A stretch of DNA of 64,000 nt from Pseudoxanthomonas sp. CF385. GTDB lineage: Bacteria; Pseudomonadota; Gammaproteobacteria; Xanthomonadales; Xanthomonadaceae. Positions 31,336 through 56,085 of the stretch are shown here, piece by piece. The notes below the pieces were generated by a model that saw only the letters and a list, made by a program, of their open reading frames with translations, was not told where the DNA came from and did no database searches. The DNA lies in assembly GCF_900104255.1 (NCBI RefSeq), contig NZ_FNKZ01000004.1, positions 1-64,000 of the forward strand, in the 5' to 3' direction. The translations under genes and the position numbers were made by a program. Position 1 is the stretch's first letter; each line of letters starts with the position of its first letter.

Positions 31336-31349
31336 TTGATCCTGATCAA
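31336..31349 (+). promoter_or_regulatory. Fnr/Anr box upstream of ccoN
   Basis: TTGATCCTGATCAA is a perfect match to TTGAT-N4-ATCAA. Placed at -41.5 it predicts transcription starting near 31384, 21 bases before the ccoN ATG, the geometry of an activated class II promoter. The matching Fnr-type regulator is encoded at 43788-44555, whose recognition helix contains ETVSR. Whether the site also affects cydA, about 140 bases away on the other side, is open. Confidence 0.85.
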
Positions 31350-31404
31350 TGCGGCCCGCCCGACCGGGCCGGAGAATCCACCGTACCAGAATAGGAGAGG
31401 CCGC

Positions 31405-32844
31405 ATGCAAGGCGTCCAGGGGACTTACAACGACAAGGTGGTGCGCCAGTTCACGGTGATGACCGTGGTCTGGGGCATCGTGGGGATGCTGGTGGGGGTG
31501 CTGATCGCCGCCCAGCTGTACTGGCCGGCCCTGAATTTCGACCTGCCGTGGTTGAGCTACGGTCGGCTGCGGCCGCTGCACACCAATGCGGTGATCTTCG
31601 CGTTCGGCGGCTGCGCGCTGTTCGCCACCAGCCTGCACGTGGTGCAGCGGACCAGCCACGTGCGGCTGATCTCGGACAAGCTGGCGGCCTTCGTGTTCTG
31701 GGGCTGGCAGCTGGTCATCGTGGCCGCCGCAGTGTCCCTGCCGCTGGGCCTGACCCAGGGCAAGGAGTACGCCGAACTGATCTGGCCGATCGACGTGCTG
31801 ATCGCGGTGGTCTGGGTCTCCTACGCCGTGCTGTTCTTCGGCACCATCGCCAAGCGCGCGGTGAAGCACATCTACGTGGCGAACTGGTTCTTCGGCGCCT
31901 ACATCATCGCCGTGGCCCTGCTGCACATCGTCAACAGCCTCGCCCTGCCCAGCGGCCTGCTGCATTCCTACCCGGTCTACAGCGGCGCGGTCGATGCGAT
32001 GGTGCAGTGGTGGTACGGCCACAACGCGGTGGGCTTCTTCCTGACCGCCGGCTTCCTCGGGATGATGTACTACTTCGTGCCGAAGCAGGCCGGCCGCCCG
32101 GTTTACTCCTACCGGCTGTCGATCGTCCACTTCTGGGCGCTGATCGCCATCTACATGTGGGCCGGCCCGCACCACCTGCACTACACCGCGCTGCCGGACT
32201 GGGCGCAGAGCCTGGGCATGGTGTTCTCGCTCATCCTGCTGGCCCCCAGCTGGGGCGGCGCCATCAACGGCGTACTGACGCTATCCGGCGTGTGGCACAA
32301 GCTGCGCACCGATCCGATCCTGAAGTTCCTGATCGTCTCGCTGTCGTTCTACATGATGTCGACCTTCGAAGGTCCGATGATGTCGATCAAGACGGTCAAC
32401 TCGCTGAGCCATTACACCGACTGGACCATCGGCCACGTGCACGCCGGCGCCCTGGGCTGGGTGGCGATGATCACCATCGGCTCGGTCTACGCGATGCTGC
32501 CCAAGCTGCTGGGCCGCGAGCAGATGCATTCGGTCAAGGCCATCGACACGCACTTCTGGCTGCACACGCTGGGCGTGGTGTTCTACATCGCCTCGATGTG
32601 GATCGCCGGCGTCATGCAGGGCCTGATGTGGCGCGCCACCAACGCCGACGGCACGCTGACCTACAGCTTCGTCGAGGCGTTGAACGCCACCTACCCCTAC
32701 TACCTGGTCCGCCTGGGCGGCGGCCTGCTGGTCTTCTGCGGCATGTTGCTGATGGCCTGGAACACCTGGAAGACCTTCCAGGCAGCCAAGTCCGTCGCGC
32801 CGCAGCCGATCCTGCAGCCCGATGCCAGCCAAGCGCGCGCCTGA
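31405..32844 (+). CDS. ccoN: cbb3-type cytochrome c oxidase subunit I
   Basis: A 479-residue haem-copper oxidase subunit with about 12 helices. Haem and copper ligands are in the expected places: [15 protein letters not shown] (low-spin haem His), [15 protein letters not shown] (CuB His), [15 protein letters not shown] (CuB His pair) and [17 protein letters not shown] (haem His pair). GGAGAGG precedes the ATG at 31405. As catalytic subunit of the C-family oxidase it reduces oxygen with very high affinity. It heads the ccoNOQP operon that continues through ccoGHIS and cydDC with hardly any gaps. Confidence 0.97.
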
Positions 32845-43787: not shown

Positions 43788-44555
43788 TCAGGCCCGCGCT
43801 TCGGCCAGGGCATCCAGGCGCGTGCGGTTCAGCAGGCGCACGTGATGCGGGTCTTCGGTGGCGATGCTGCCTTCCTGGCGCAGGCGGGTGAAGCTGCGGC
43901 TCACCGTTTCCACGGTCAGGCCCAGGTAGTCGGCGATGTCGGTGCGCGTCATCGGCAGGATCACTTCGGTGTCGTCCTGGCCCTGCCGGCGGCGACGCTG
44001 CGCCATGTCGACGAGGAAGCCGGCCAGCCGCTCCATCGGGTTCAGGCGGGCGAGCGACATCAGGTTGCCGCGGGTGGCGTCCAGCTCCACGCAGGCACGC
44101 TCGAGCAGTTCGCGCTCGAGTTCGGGGTGGTCGTTGCACAGGCTGCGCATGTCGGCCATCGAGAATTCGCACAGCGCGCTGTCGGTGATCGACTCGATGG
44201 TGTGCCGGTAGTGCGAAGTGCCGCTGAAGCCGATGAAGTCGCCCGGCATCAGGAAACCGGCCACCAGCCGGCGCCCGTCGGGCAGCAGGCGGATCCGGCG
44301 CAGCGCGCCCTTGGTCACCGTGAACACGCCGCGGCGCGGCTCGCCCTCGCGGACCAGGGCCTCGCCGGCCCCCAGGCGGACGTCGTCGGCCAGCGATTCC
44401 ATCGCATGCGCCTTCTGGACCGGCAGCGCCGCGCAGACGGCCAGATGCCGGACCAGGCAGCCGCTGCAGCCGCGCGAGGCCTGACACACCACGGCCTCGC
44501 TGCCGGCGGAACCGGTCACGGGGGCGTCGTTCTGGCGGAGGATGCGAAGGCTCAT
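43788..44555 (-). CDS. fnr: Fnr/Anr-type oxygen-responsive transcription regulator
   Basis: A 255-residue CRP/Fnr-family regulator. Four N-terminal Cys (24, 30, 33, 41) and an internal Cys at 129 (SALCEFSM) are available for a 4Fe-4S cluster, although the spacing CSGC-x7-C differs slightly from E. coli Fnr. A cyclic-nucleotide-type beta roll (GEALVREGEPRRGVF) is followed by the helix-turn-helix TRTDIADYLGLTVETVSRSF, whose E-VSR matches recognition of TTGAT-N4-ATCAA. Perfect boxes of this kind lie before ccoN and fabA in this window. The gene faces the end of cydC. Confidence 0.9.
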   Translation of the reverse strand: MSLRILRQNDAPVTGSAGSEAVVCQASRGCSGCLVRHLAVCAALPVQKAHAMESLADDVRLGAGEALVREGEPRRGVFTVTKGALRRIRLLPDGRRLVAGFLMPGDFIGFSGTSHYRHTIESITDSALCEFSMADMRSLCNDHPELERELLERACVELDATRGNLMSLARLNPMERLAGFLVDMAQRRRRQGQDDTEVILPMTRTDIADYLGLTVETVSRSFTRLRQEGSIATEDPHHVRLLNRTRLDALAEARA

Positions 44556-53061: not shown

Positions 53062-54144
53062 TCAACCGGCGGCCAGCTCGGTCCCGTCGAACAGGCCCGG
53101 CTGGGTCGCCCCCTCGTCCCGGTCACGGAAGCCCGACAGGCCCACGCCCACCAGCCGGTAGCGGGTCGAGGCCGGCAGGTCCACGCGCTCGCGCAGGGCC
53201 ATCGCGATGTCGATGAACTCCTGGGCCGACGCCGGCGGCGCTTCCGGCGTGAAGCTGCGGGTGAGGATGCGGAACTGCGCGGTCTTCAGCTTCAGCACAA
53301 CGGTGCGGCCCACGCGCTCGGTCTTGCGGCTGGCCTGCCACGCCTTCTCTGCGATGCGCACGATGTGCGGCTCCAGTTCGGACAGCAGCAGGTCGGTCGC
53401 GAACGTGTCTTCGGACGAAATCGACTGCACCGGCTGGTCCGGCTCCACCGGCCGCTCGTCGATGCCGCGCGCGCGCCGGTACAGGCTGCCGCCGAAGCTG
53501 CCGTAGCGCGCCTCCAGTTCGTGCTGCGCATGCAGACGCAGATCGCCGACGGTACGGATGCCGTCCGCATTGAGCTTGCCCTGCATCACCTTGCCCACGC
53601 CGGGGATGCGCTCCACCGGCAGCGGCGTCAGGAAGGCCTCCACCTGGTGCGGCCGGAGCACGAATTGCCCATCGGGCTTGCGCCAGTCCGACGCGATCTT
53701 GGCGAGGAACTTGTTCGGCGCCACGCCGGCGGATGCGGTCAGCTGCGTTTCTTCGCGGATCTGCGCGCGGATCGTCTCGGCCACGGCGGTGGCGGTCGGC
53801 AGGTCGGTCTTCGGCGCGGTGACATCGAGATAGGCCTCATCCAGCGACAGTGGTTCGACCAGGTCGGTGTGGCGCAGGAAGATCTCGCGCACCTGCCGCG
53901 ACACCGTCTTGTAGCGGGTGAAGTCCGGCGGCACGAACACCGCCTGCGGACACAATCGTTCCGCGCGCACCGCCGGCATCGCCGAGCGCACGCCGAACAC
54001 GCGCGCTTCGTACGACGCCGCGCAGACCACCGAACGCTCGCCGCGCCACGCCACCACCACCGGCCGTCCACGCAGTGAAGGATCGTCGCGCTGTTCCACC
54101 GACGCGTAGAACGCGTCCATGTCGATGTGGATGATCTTGCGCAT
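53062..54144 (-). CDS. dinB: DNA polymerase IV
   Basis: A 360-residue Y-family translesion polymerase. It begins [20 protein letters not shown] with metal ligand Asp8, has [10 protein letters not shown] with the catalytic Asp-Glu, a helix-hairpin-helix in [12 protein letters not shown], and the little-finger domain after residue 240. A longer frame upstream is rejected because the family signature starts at 54144. No Xanthomonas-type LexA box (TTAG-N6-TACTA) was seen upstream, so damage induction is unproven. No clear beta-clamp motif beyond the C-terminal QPGLFDG, which fits Q-x-x-L-F. Confidence 0.94.
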
Positions 54145-54289
54145 CACGCGATGATATCGGCCGCCGTACGCGATCGCATGGATGCATGCGCGCACGATAC
54201 GCACGCGTGTGGAGTCGAGGGCAGAAAGCGCGAAACCCTTGCCGCGATTGCACTTTGTCGATGGTACGCCGGCGTATGGAAAAACCCGG

Positions 54290-54334
54290 TTGATTTGCAT
54301 CAAGACAAGCGTATGCACATGTGTGCATTATTTA
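54290..54334 (+). promoter_or_regulatory. fabA promoter with Fnr box and overlapping dyad
   Basis: TTGATTTGCATCAA (54290-54303) is a perfect Fnr box. Placed at -41.5 it gives a start near 54338 and a -10 at CATTAT (54326-54331), with a leader of 21 bases, as at ccoN. A second dyad, ATGCACA-TG-TGTGCAT (54313-54328), overlaps the -10 and could bind a repressor of the FabR or similar type. Confidence 0.7.
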
Positions 54335-54358
54335 CGGCTTCGCAGAACGGACCATGCA

Positions 54359-54874
54359 ATGAACGCCCCCGCTTCCTTCTCGCGCGAACAGCTGCTGGCC
54401 AGCGCACGCGGCGAACTCTTCGGCCCCGACAGCGGCCGTCTCCCGAACGACCCGATGCTGATGTTCGACCGCATCACCGAGATCCGCCAGGACGGCGGTG
54501 CGCACGGCAAGGGCATGGTGCGCGCCGAACTCGATATCCATCCCGACCTGTGGTTCTTCCAGTGCCACTTCCTCGGCGATCCGGTGATGCCCGGCTGCCT
54601 GGGCCTGGATGCGATGTGGCAGCTCACCGGGTTCTTCCTCACCTGGATCGGCGCGCCCGGCCGCGGTCGCGCGCTCGGTTCCGGCGAAGTGAAGTTCACC
54701 GGGCAGGTACTGCCCACCGCCAAGCGCGTGAGCTACGAGATCGACGTCAGCCGCGTGGTCAACCGCAAGCTGGTGCTGGCGGTGGCCGACGGCCGCATGC
54801 TCGTCGACGGACGCGAGATCTATACCGCGCGCGACCTGCGCGTGGGCCTGTTCACTTCGACGGAGAGCTTCTGA
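54359..54874 (+). CDS. fabA: 3-hydroxydecanoyl-ACP dehydratase/isomerase
   Basis: A 171-residue hot-dog-fold enzyme that dehydrates 3-hydroxydecanoyl-ACP and isomerises the trans-2 to the cis-3 product, the branch point to unsaturated fatty acids. Catalytic His70 ([15 protein letters not shown]) and Asp84 (LGLDAMWQL) are at the same numbers as in E. coli. The ATG at 54359 is preceded by an Fnr box and a dyad. fabB follows after 2 bases, so the two unsaturated-fatty-acid genes form an operon. Confidence 0.96.
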
Positions 54875-54876
54875 CC

Positions 54877-56085
54877 ATGCGCCGTATCGCCATCACCGGC
54901 CTAGGCATCACCTCCTGCCTGGGCAACGATGCGGATACCGTGTCGGCCGCGCTGCGCGAAGGCCGTTCGGGCATCCGTCATATCCCGCAATACGCCGAAC
55001 TCGGCTTCCGCAGCCAGGTGGGCGGCGCGCCCGAGATCGACCTCGACGCGCAGATCGACCGCAAGCAGAAGCGCTTCATGGGCGATGCCGCGGCGTTCGC
55101 GCACATCGCGCTGCGCGATGCGATCGCCGATGCCGGCCTGGACGAGGCGCTGGTCAGCCAGCCGCGCACCGGCCTGATCGCCGGTTCCGGCGGCGGCTCG
55201 GCCGAATGGCAGATCGAAGCCGCTGACCTGCTGCGCGCGCGCGGTATCCGCAAGGTCGGGCCGTACATGGTGCCGCGCACGATGTGCTCGACGGTGTCGG
55301 CGACGCTGGCAACCGCGTTCAAGATCAAGGGCGTGAGCTATTCGATCTCCGCGGCCTGTGCGACCTCCGCGCACTGCATCGGTGCCGCCGCGGATCTGAT
55401 CCGCGCAGGACGCCAGGACATCGTGTTCGCCGGCGGCGGCGAAGAACTGCACTGGGCGCTGACGATGATGTTCGACGCGATGGGCGCGCTGTCGAGCAAG
55501 CGCAACGACGACCCCACCCATGCCTCGCGGCCGTACGACGCGGACCGCGATGGCTTCGTCATCGCCGGCGGCGGCGGCATGCTGGTGCTGGAGGATTACG
55601 ACCACGCGGTGAAGCGCGGCGCGCGCATCCACGCCGAATTGCTGGGCTATGGCGTGACGTCCGATGGCGCCGACATGGTGGCGCCGTCCGGCGAAGGCGC
55701 CGTGCGCTGCATGCAGATGGCGCTGGAAGGCGTCACCGCGCCGCTGGACTACCTCAACACGCACGGCACCTCGACGCCACTGGGCGACGTTATCGAACTC
55801 GAGGCGATCCGCACCGCGCTCGGCGACACCCTGCCGCCGATCTCCTCGACGAAGGCGCTGTCGGGCCACTCACTGGGCGCGGCCAGCGTGCACGAAGCGA
55901 TCTATTGCCTGCTGATGATGCGCGATGGCTTCATCGCGGGCTCGGCCAACATCGAGACGCTGGATGAGGGCGCGGCGGCGTTCCCCATCGTGCAGACGAG
56001 CCGCGACGCGACGCTGAACACCGTGATGTCGAACAGCTTCGGTTTCGGCGGCACCAACGCCAGCCTGGTGTTCGGGCGCGCCTGA
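54877..56085 (+). CDS. fabB: Beta-ketoacyl-ACP synthase I
   Basis: A 402-residue condensing enzyme that elongates cis-unsaturated acyl-ACP. The catalytic triad is Cys in [12 protein letters not shown], His in [12 protein letters not shown] and His in [19 protein letters not shown] closes the protein. Directly after fabA with a 2-base gap, it is FabB rather than FabF by context and sequence ([18 protein letters not shown] start). Regulation by the fabA promoter is expected. Confidence 0.95.

Follow-up and report, generated by a model that had tools for sequence, protein, structure and literature searches.

The promoter described here resembles the class II promoters activated by FNR, Anr or FnrL, such as those of ccoN and hemN, in having a TTGAT-N4-ATCAA box and, 22 nt further on, a -10-like element. 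It differs in its target, which is fabAB. In Pseudomonas aeruginosa, where fabAB is likewise the oxygen-independent route, Anr is reported to activate fabA'-lacZ when tested in E. coli (PMC3462791). On the other hand, deletion of anr in P. aeruginosa lowered fabA'-lacZ by only about 25%, and the authors conclude that Anr plays a minor and probably indirect role, as opposed to the direct control proposed here. A term search for fabA gave no hit in the main texts on the Pseudomonas Anr core regulon (PMC6588701) and on FnrL of Rhodobacter capsulatus (PMC4634722), nor in that of PMC2908626. No report of direct control of fabAB by an Fnr protein was found in the literature, taken mostly from outside subscription journals. 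This agrees with the original prediction, according to which such control is not a standard feature; Anr of P. aeruginosa is a partial precedent.

A second described system is the control of fabA by FabR and FadR in enteric bacteria and Shewanella (PMC4273635, in part), where, as here, an operator-like palindrome with GCGTAC halves lies near fabA. The halves of the FabR motif AGCGTACACGTGTTCGCT stand, however, in the opposite order to those of GTACGC-N2-GCGTA(C/T) at our locus; judged by eye, the TACGC palindrome shows the half order AGCGTACA...TGTTCGCT of the FabR operator reversed. A FabR-like form of the palindrome is found at fabA of Idiomarina.

The window, i.e. the whole analysed stretch of 64 kb from a bacterium of Pseudoxanthomonas type, contains fabA and fabB, with dinB transcribed divergently (Table 1). 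FabA, FabB and DinB all pass their NCBIfam equivalog cut-offs, and the closest named relatives by FabA are Pseudoxanthomonas sp. PXM01, PXM02 and 3HH-4, all three of which have the perfect Fnr box at fabA. Upstream of fabA, the palindrome TACGCCGGCGTA, the Fnr box TTGATTTGCATCAA, a second dyad and the hexamer CATTAT follow each other in this order, the palindrome being centred 26 bp upstream of the centre of the Fnr box. A perfect Fnr box at the same distance as at ccoN had been claimed, and this was borne out: the box is a full TTGAT-N4-ATCAA, and 22 nt separate box and hexamer both at fabA (CATTAT) and at ccoN (GAGAAT). Each hexamer agrees with TATAAT in 4 of 6 positions and hence is a weak -10 element. 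The 22-nt spacing fits a class II site at the predicted position -41.5.

Table 1. Features of the fabAB locus, the ccoN promoter and the Fnr-type regulators
Feature	Position	Strand	Remarks
dinB	53062-54144		divergent from fabA and fabB
Palindrome TACGCCGGCGTA	54265..54276	.	extended form TACGCCGGCGTATGG reaches 54279
Fnr box TTGATTTGCATCAA	54290..54303	+	perfect; centre 54296.5, predicted -41.5
Second dyad ATGCACA-TG-TGTGCAT	54313..54328	.	overlaps -10
-10-like CATTAT	54326..54331	+	22 nt past Fnr box end; predicted start near 54338, deduced from class II geometry
fabA	54359..54874	+	TIGR01749, 306 bits (cut-off 238)
fabB	54877..56085	+	NF005935, 654 bits (cut-off 630)
ccoN Fnr box	31336..31349	+	yardstick; ccoN by TIGR00780
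ccoN -10-like GAGAAT	31372-31377		
Third Fnr box of the window	32377-32390		within ccoN
Fnr1, Fnr-type regulator	43788..44555	-	CSGCLVRHLAVC and ETVSR; 10 kb from fabAB
Fnr2, second Fnr paralogue	G000:C1:403400-404152 (L235)		CxxC-x5-C and ETVSR

Between the box and a -10-like element lie 22 nt, the box of ccoN and several other boxes of the genome are arranged alike, the genome carries an intact Fnr-type gene, and the layout is conserved in relatives. On this basis we consider it quite probable that fabAB has a class II promoter directly activated at low oxygen by an Fnr-type regulator, most likely Fnr1. At low oxygen, an iron-sulphur Fnr dimer would bind at -41.5 and recruit RNA polymerase at fabAB, and the oxygen-independent route of FabA and FabB would rise as the genome's oxygen-requiring desaturases are deprived of their substrate. 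Two proteins of the FA_desaturase family are encoded in the genome; for one of them a DesA-family model gives a match that stays under the cut-off. Given these predicted oxygen-requiring desaturases, a rise of the oxygen-independent route at falling oxygen would be sensible. Promoter anatomy and conservation in relatives give good support to the proposal that Fnr raises fabAB at low oxygen.

A chance origin of the box was considered and rejected on the basis of the genome-wide reversed control and of the shuffles of window, family and order. The window holds 3 Fnr boxes with at most one mismatch, 2 of them perfect, compared to a mean of 0.25 and a maximum of 2 in 100 dinucleotide shuffles. Over the whole genome (3.88 Mb), 11 boxes are perfect and the reversed control pattern is not matched at all. 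By family models, perfect boxes precede ccoN, hemN, the gene of a type I GAPDH, that of a RoxA-like JmjC protein and that of a glutamate-synthase-domain protein; named by eye, they also precede genes for a universal stress protein, a bacteriohemerythrin-like protein and two TonB-dependent receptors, and one (L007) has no gene assigned. The RoxA-like JmjC oxygenase is an oxygen-using enzyme, and its perfect box lies about 70 bases before the gene (L004, near base 1501). When offsets of 12-33 were scanned, with the orientation set by the gene and L007 tried both ways, the top or joint-top -10-like hexamer was exactly 22 nt downstream for 7 of the 11 boxes and elsewhere for L001, L006, L008 and L009.

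Fnr1 is encoded by an intact gene. The protein has an N-terminal cysteine cluster of the Fnr/FnrL type, CSGCLVRHLAVC (CxxC-x7-C), and an internal cysteine in ALCEF, which together we take to be the cluster ligands. It further contains a cNMP-binding domain and a Crp-type HTH (PF13545 and PF00325, both above cut-off) with the recognition helix ETVSR. Its best matches among solved structures are FixK2 and an entry described as 'FNR type regulator'. The best NCBIfam match is FnrL (NF045989) with 140 bits against an equivalog cut-off of 300, and therefore Fnr1 is called Fnr-type here and not FnrL. The box might instead be used mainly by the paralogue Fnr2, or by both proteins, with the same oxygen logic. 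Fnr2 combines a cysteine cluster of the Fnr type with the ETVSR helix, and its 196 bits fall short of the Fnr cut-off of 228. Its occurrence in the genus is patchy, with 22 of 38 genomes giving a match at E 1e-100 or better; the Fnr homologue seen in the genera g4, g42 and g39 is nearer to Fnr2. However, in three genus genomes (G206, G284 and G301) the fabA box is perfect and there is no Fnr2 orthologue at E 1e-100. For this reason Fnr1 is the more economical candidate, and use of the box mainly by Fnr2, or by both proteins, seems unlikely.

Fnr sites in promoters can also repress. If this were the case here, Fnr would bind the box and lower fabAB expression at low oxygen, and such a reading could draw on anoxic P. 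putida, in which the fabA transcript fell according to the relevant part of PMC11389600. It is, however, at odds with the geometry of the fabA promoter, which is that of ccoN, a gene activated by FnrL in R. capsulatus (excerpts of PMC4634722), and with the lack of a good -35 element 17 bp upstream of CATTAT, as judged by eye. Repression therefore appears highly improbable to us, and activation remains the preferred reading.

Relatives were searched for the site, and it was retained in 17 of 21 fabA promoters of the genus and in further genera and families. The genus corresponds to group g1 of the genome set, in which FabA was detected in 21 of 38 genomes. At E 1e-30 the other 17 gave no match to FabA, and matches to the FA_desaturase family occur in all 38. 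Box and dyad counts in the genus were read from the printed promoter sequences. The box is perfect in 15/21 promoters, has one mismatch in G300 and G158, two mismatches in G016, G091 and G306, and three in G253 (4/21 with two or three). FabA of G158 is divergent (72% identical) and encoded at another locus, with the promoter layout unchanged. Among 20 aligned genus promoters (the window included, G158 left out), identity to the window was 0.91 in the Fnr box, 0.96 in the TACGC palindrome and 0.94 in the second dyad, and 0.73 in the upstream stretch 54146-54260. P. kaohsiungensis and J35, which are named Pseudoxanthomonas and fall outside g1, have no box at fabA.

The second dyad had been taken to suggest a second repressor, acting against Fnr, for which it would be a local operator. 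The dyad itself is real: its 7-base arms are perfect, it shares three bases with the -10 element, and it is the sole copy in the genome with fewer than 2 mismatches, the pattern ATGCACANNTGTGCAT recurring at 4 other places that all have 2 mismatches. Perfect arms occur in 18/21 genus promoters, of which 15 have TG and 3 have AT as the spacer. As points against an operator, the dyad is decayed in G298 (two mismatches), absent from G300 and G158, and in family promoters outside the genus not found within 2 mismatches; moreover, the adjoining promoter bases are conserved as well, and there is no second copy that would point at a regulator gene. The dyad may thus serve as a local operator or simply be part of the promoter, and a repressor that opposes Fnr here appears somewhat unlikely. 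Of that claim, the dyad stands, restricted to part of one genus.

For the family, 130 fabA promoters were sampled, drawn from the stronger matches listed for 201 genomes with a match; 119 of them, from 28 genera, lie outside the genus of the window. The strict pattern TTGATNNNNATCAA is perfect at the expected place in none of these 119 and within one mismatch in 6 (L113, L114, L137-L140). With the relaxed pattern TTGAYNNNNRTCAA (TTGAY-N4-RTCAA), 17/119 promoters from five genera are within one mismatch, with the box placed as in the window (g4 7/8, g6 2/2, g21 1/1, g42 4/8, g45 3/3), compared to a mean of 0.70 and a maximum of 4 in dinucleotide shuffles; as the pattern was relaxed after viewing the family promoters, this count is not an independent test. 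Since FnrL ChIP sites include the variants TTGACgcagGTCAA and TTGACttcaGTCAA (PMC2908626, in part), the relaxed boxes are plausible Fnr sites. The 17 box-bearing promoters match TATAAT on average in 3.35 of 6 positions at offset 22, and in 0.65-2.0 at the other offsets between 10 and 35. Three g4 promoters (L112, L123, L124) have a perfect Fnr box far upstream of fabA (-221, -306 and -317) in addition to a TTGAC/GTCAA dyad at the promoter.

The promoters at order level were fetched later, with TTGAYNNNNRTCAA already fixed. FabA was matched in 98 of 200 genomes, 68 of them outside the family, and 20 promoters were hand-picked to cover the families; the count refers to the 19 outside the family, leaving out G028, which belongs to the family itself (best box with 3 mismatches). 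The relaxed box occurs within one mismatch in 11 of the 19 (shuffles: mean 0.12, largest 2), and 9 of these 11 boxes start at -68 to -74 (f2 1/1, f3 2/2, f12 6/8). The hexamer at offset 22 matches TATAAT in 3 or 4 of 6 positions in 7 of the 9 promoters, the exceptions being G352 with the hexamer at 21 and G327 with the hexamer at 23 (by eye). The 8 promoters of f6, f7, f8, f9 and f11 have no box at the expected place. It should be kept in mind for all family and order counts that these promoters are related sequences and not independent of each other. An initial view that the box is confined to the genus of the window was dropped once TTGAC/GTCAA variants were allowed and other families were sampled. 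Among named fabA promoters of Brevundimonas, Idiomarina, Pseudidiomarina, Halieaceae, Parahaliea and Oceanospirillaceae, none is within one mismatch of TTGAYNNNNRTCAA (30 of 80 loci examined). The fabA loci of two entries labelled Bacillus subtilis and Rhizobium sp. (L176 and L211) closely resemble those of Xanthomonadaceae, perhaps by contamination or mislabelling.

The remaining 102 of the 119 family promoters have no box, and none within one mismatch was seen in the sampled Xanthomonas-, Stenotrophomonas- and Thermomonas-type promoters. A sequence of the TTGATTGA, TTGATCGG or TTGATCGA type is kept at the box position in 57 promoters in which the full box is absent (g17 16, g7 13, g11 13, g29 12, and one each in g30, g2 and g43); these are of Xanthomonas, Stenotrophomonas and other types, g7 being Xanthomonas-like by eye. 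Fnr1-type genes are present in the four examples that were examined (G017, G006, G098, G087). The absence of the full box from the 57 promoters counts against a universal role and may reflect a switch to another type of promoter. A replacement -10 element at 17 bp from TTGATT was looked for in the 57 and not found (mean match 0.58/6), the best offsets being 11, 32 and 18 with about 2/6 each. The persistence of TTGATT- or TTGATC-type sequence without the second half could also be taken to mean that TTGATT is a mere -35-like promoter element, with the dyad symmetry of the box as a by-product. Where this dyad exists, however, TTGATT is 30 bp from the conserved -10 element instead of about 17, and the second half-site is retained across genera and families, which makes this explanation very hard to maintain. 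We hence return to the box as an Fnr site; its layout in several related genera and families suggests that oxygen supply and the synthesis of membrane lipids have long been connected.

The palindrome TACGCNNGCGTA (54265-54276), overlooked in the original prediction, is more widely conserved than the second dyad. It is present with at most one mismatch at -150 to -50 in 88 of the 130 family promoters, compared to a mean of 0.37 and a maximum of 4 in shuffles that preserve base content only. Its centre lies 26-27 bp from that of the Fnr box in 11/11 genus promoters compared and 25-26 bp in 14 of the 17 other box-bearing promoters, with other distances in L118, L120 and L127, where there is no good palindrome or a different copy was picked. 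In the own genome, the shorter form TACGCNNGCGTAYG speaks against the palindrome with 4 matches vs 4 for the reversed control, and with one additional G there are 4 matches vs 0. Across the genus, 89 matches to TACGCNNGCGTAYGG are spread over 35 of 38 genomes, vs 27 for the reversed control. Thirty of these loci comprise 16 at a FadH/OYE-like oxidoreductase, 9 at aceE, 3 at fabA and 2 without assignment; the next 20 places comprise 7 at aceE, 5 at the oxidoreductase, 5 at an AraC-type gene and 3 without assignment (two repeat earlier ones). In these counts aceE and the AraC type were named by eye, and the oxidoreductase is below every NCBIfam cut-off. Hence, fabA, aceE, the oxidoreductase gene and the AraC-type gene seem to share TACGCNNGCGTAYGG (54265-54279 in the window, and near base 1501 in L231, L232 and L233) as members of a small, unnamed putative regulon. 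The product of the AraC-type gene, which lies beside one TACGC site, was considered as the regulator of the palindrome, which is unlikely: 75 of 297 family genomes match it at E 1e-70, none of them in g7 or g17, and the fabA promoters of both genera carry the palindrome. Through a separate putative regulator, the palindrome would add a second input at fabAB, perhaps the lipid or acetyl-CoA state.

As a tentative scenario, which we rate a little below an even balance, direct Fnr activation of fabAB may be ancestral in the order. Oxygen and a second, lipid- or acetyl-CoA-related regulator (with TACGCNNGCGTA as operator and fabAB, aceE, the FadH-like oxidoreductase and the AraC-type gene as targets) would jointly set the oxygen-independent route, and the Xanthomonas and Stenotrophomonas lineages would have lost the oxygen input, the box turning into an ordinary promoter element.

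The data bring to light an uncharacterised small regulon which seemingly ties fabAB to pyruvate dehydrogenase. If direct activation by Fnr is true, membrane unsaturation would respond to oxygen directly through Fnr in much of a bacterial order, which would explain membrane fluidity at low oxygen in cells that also own oxygen-dependent desaturases.
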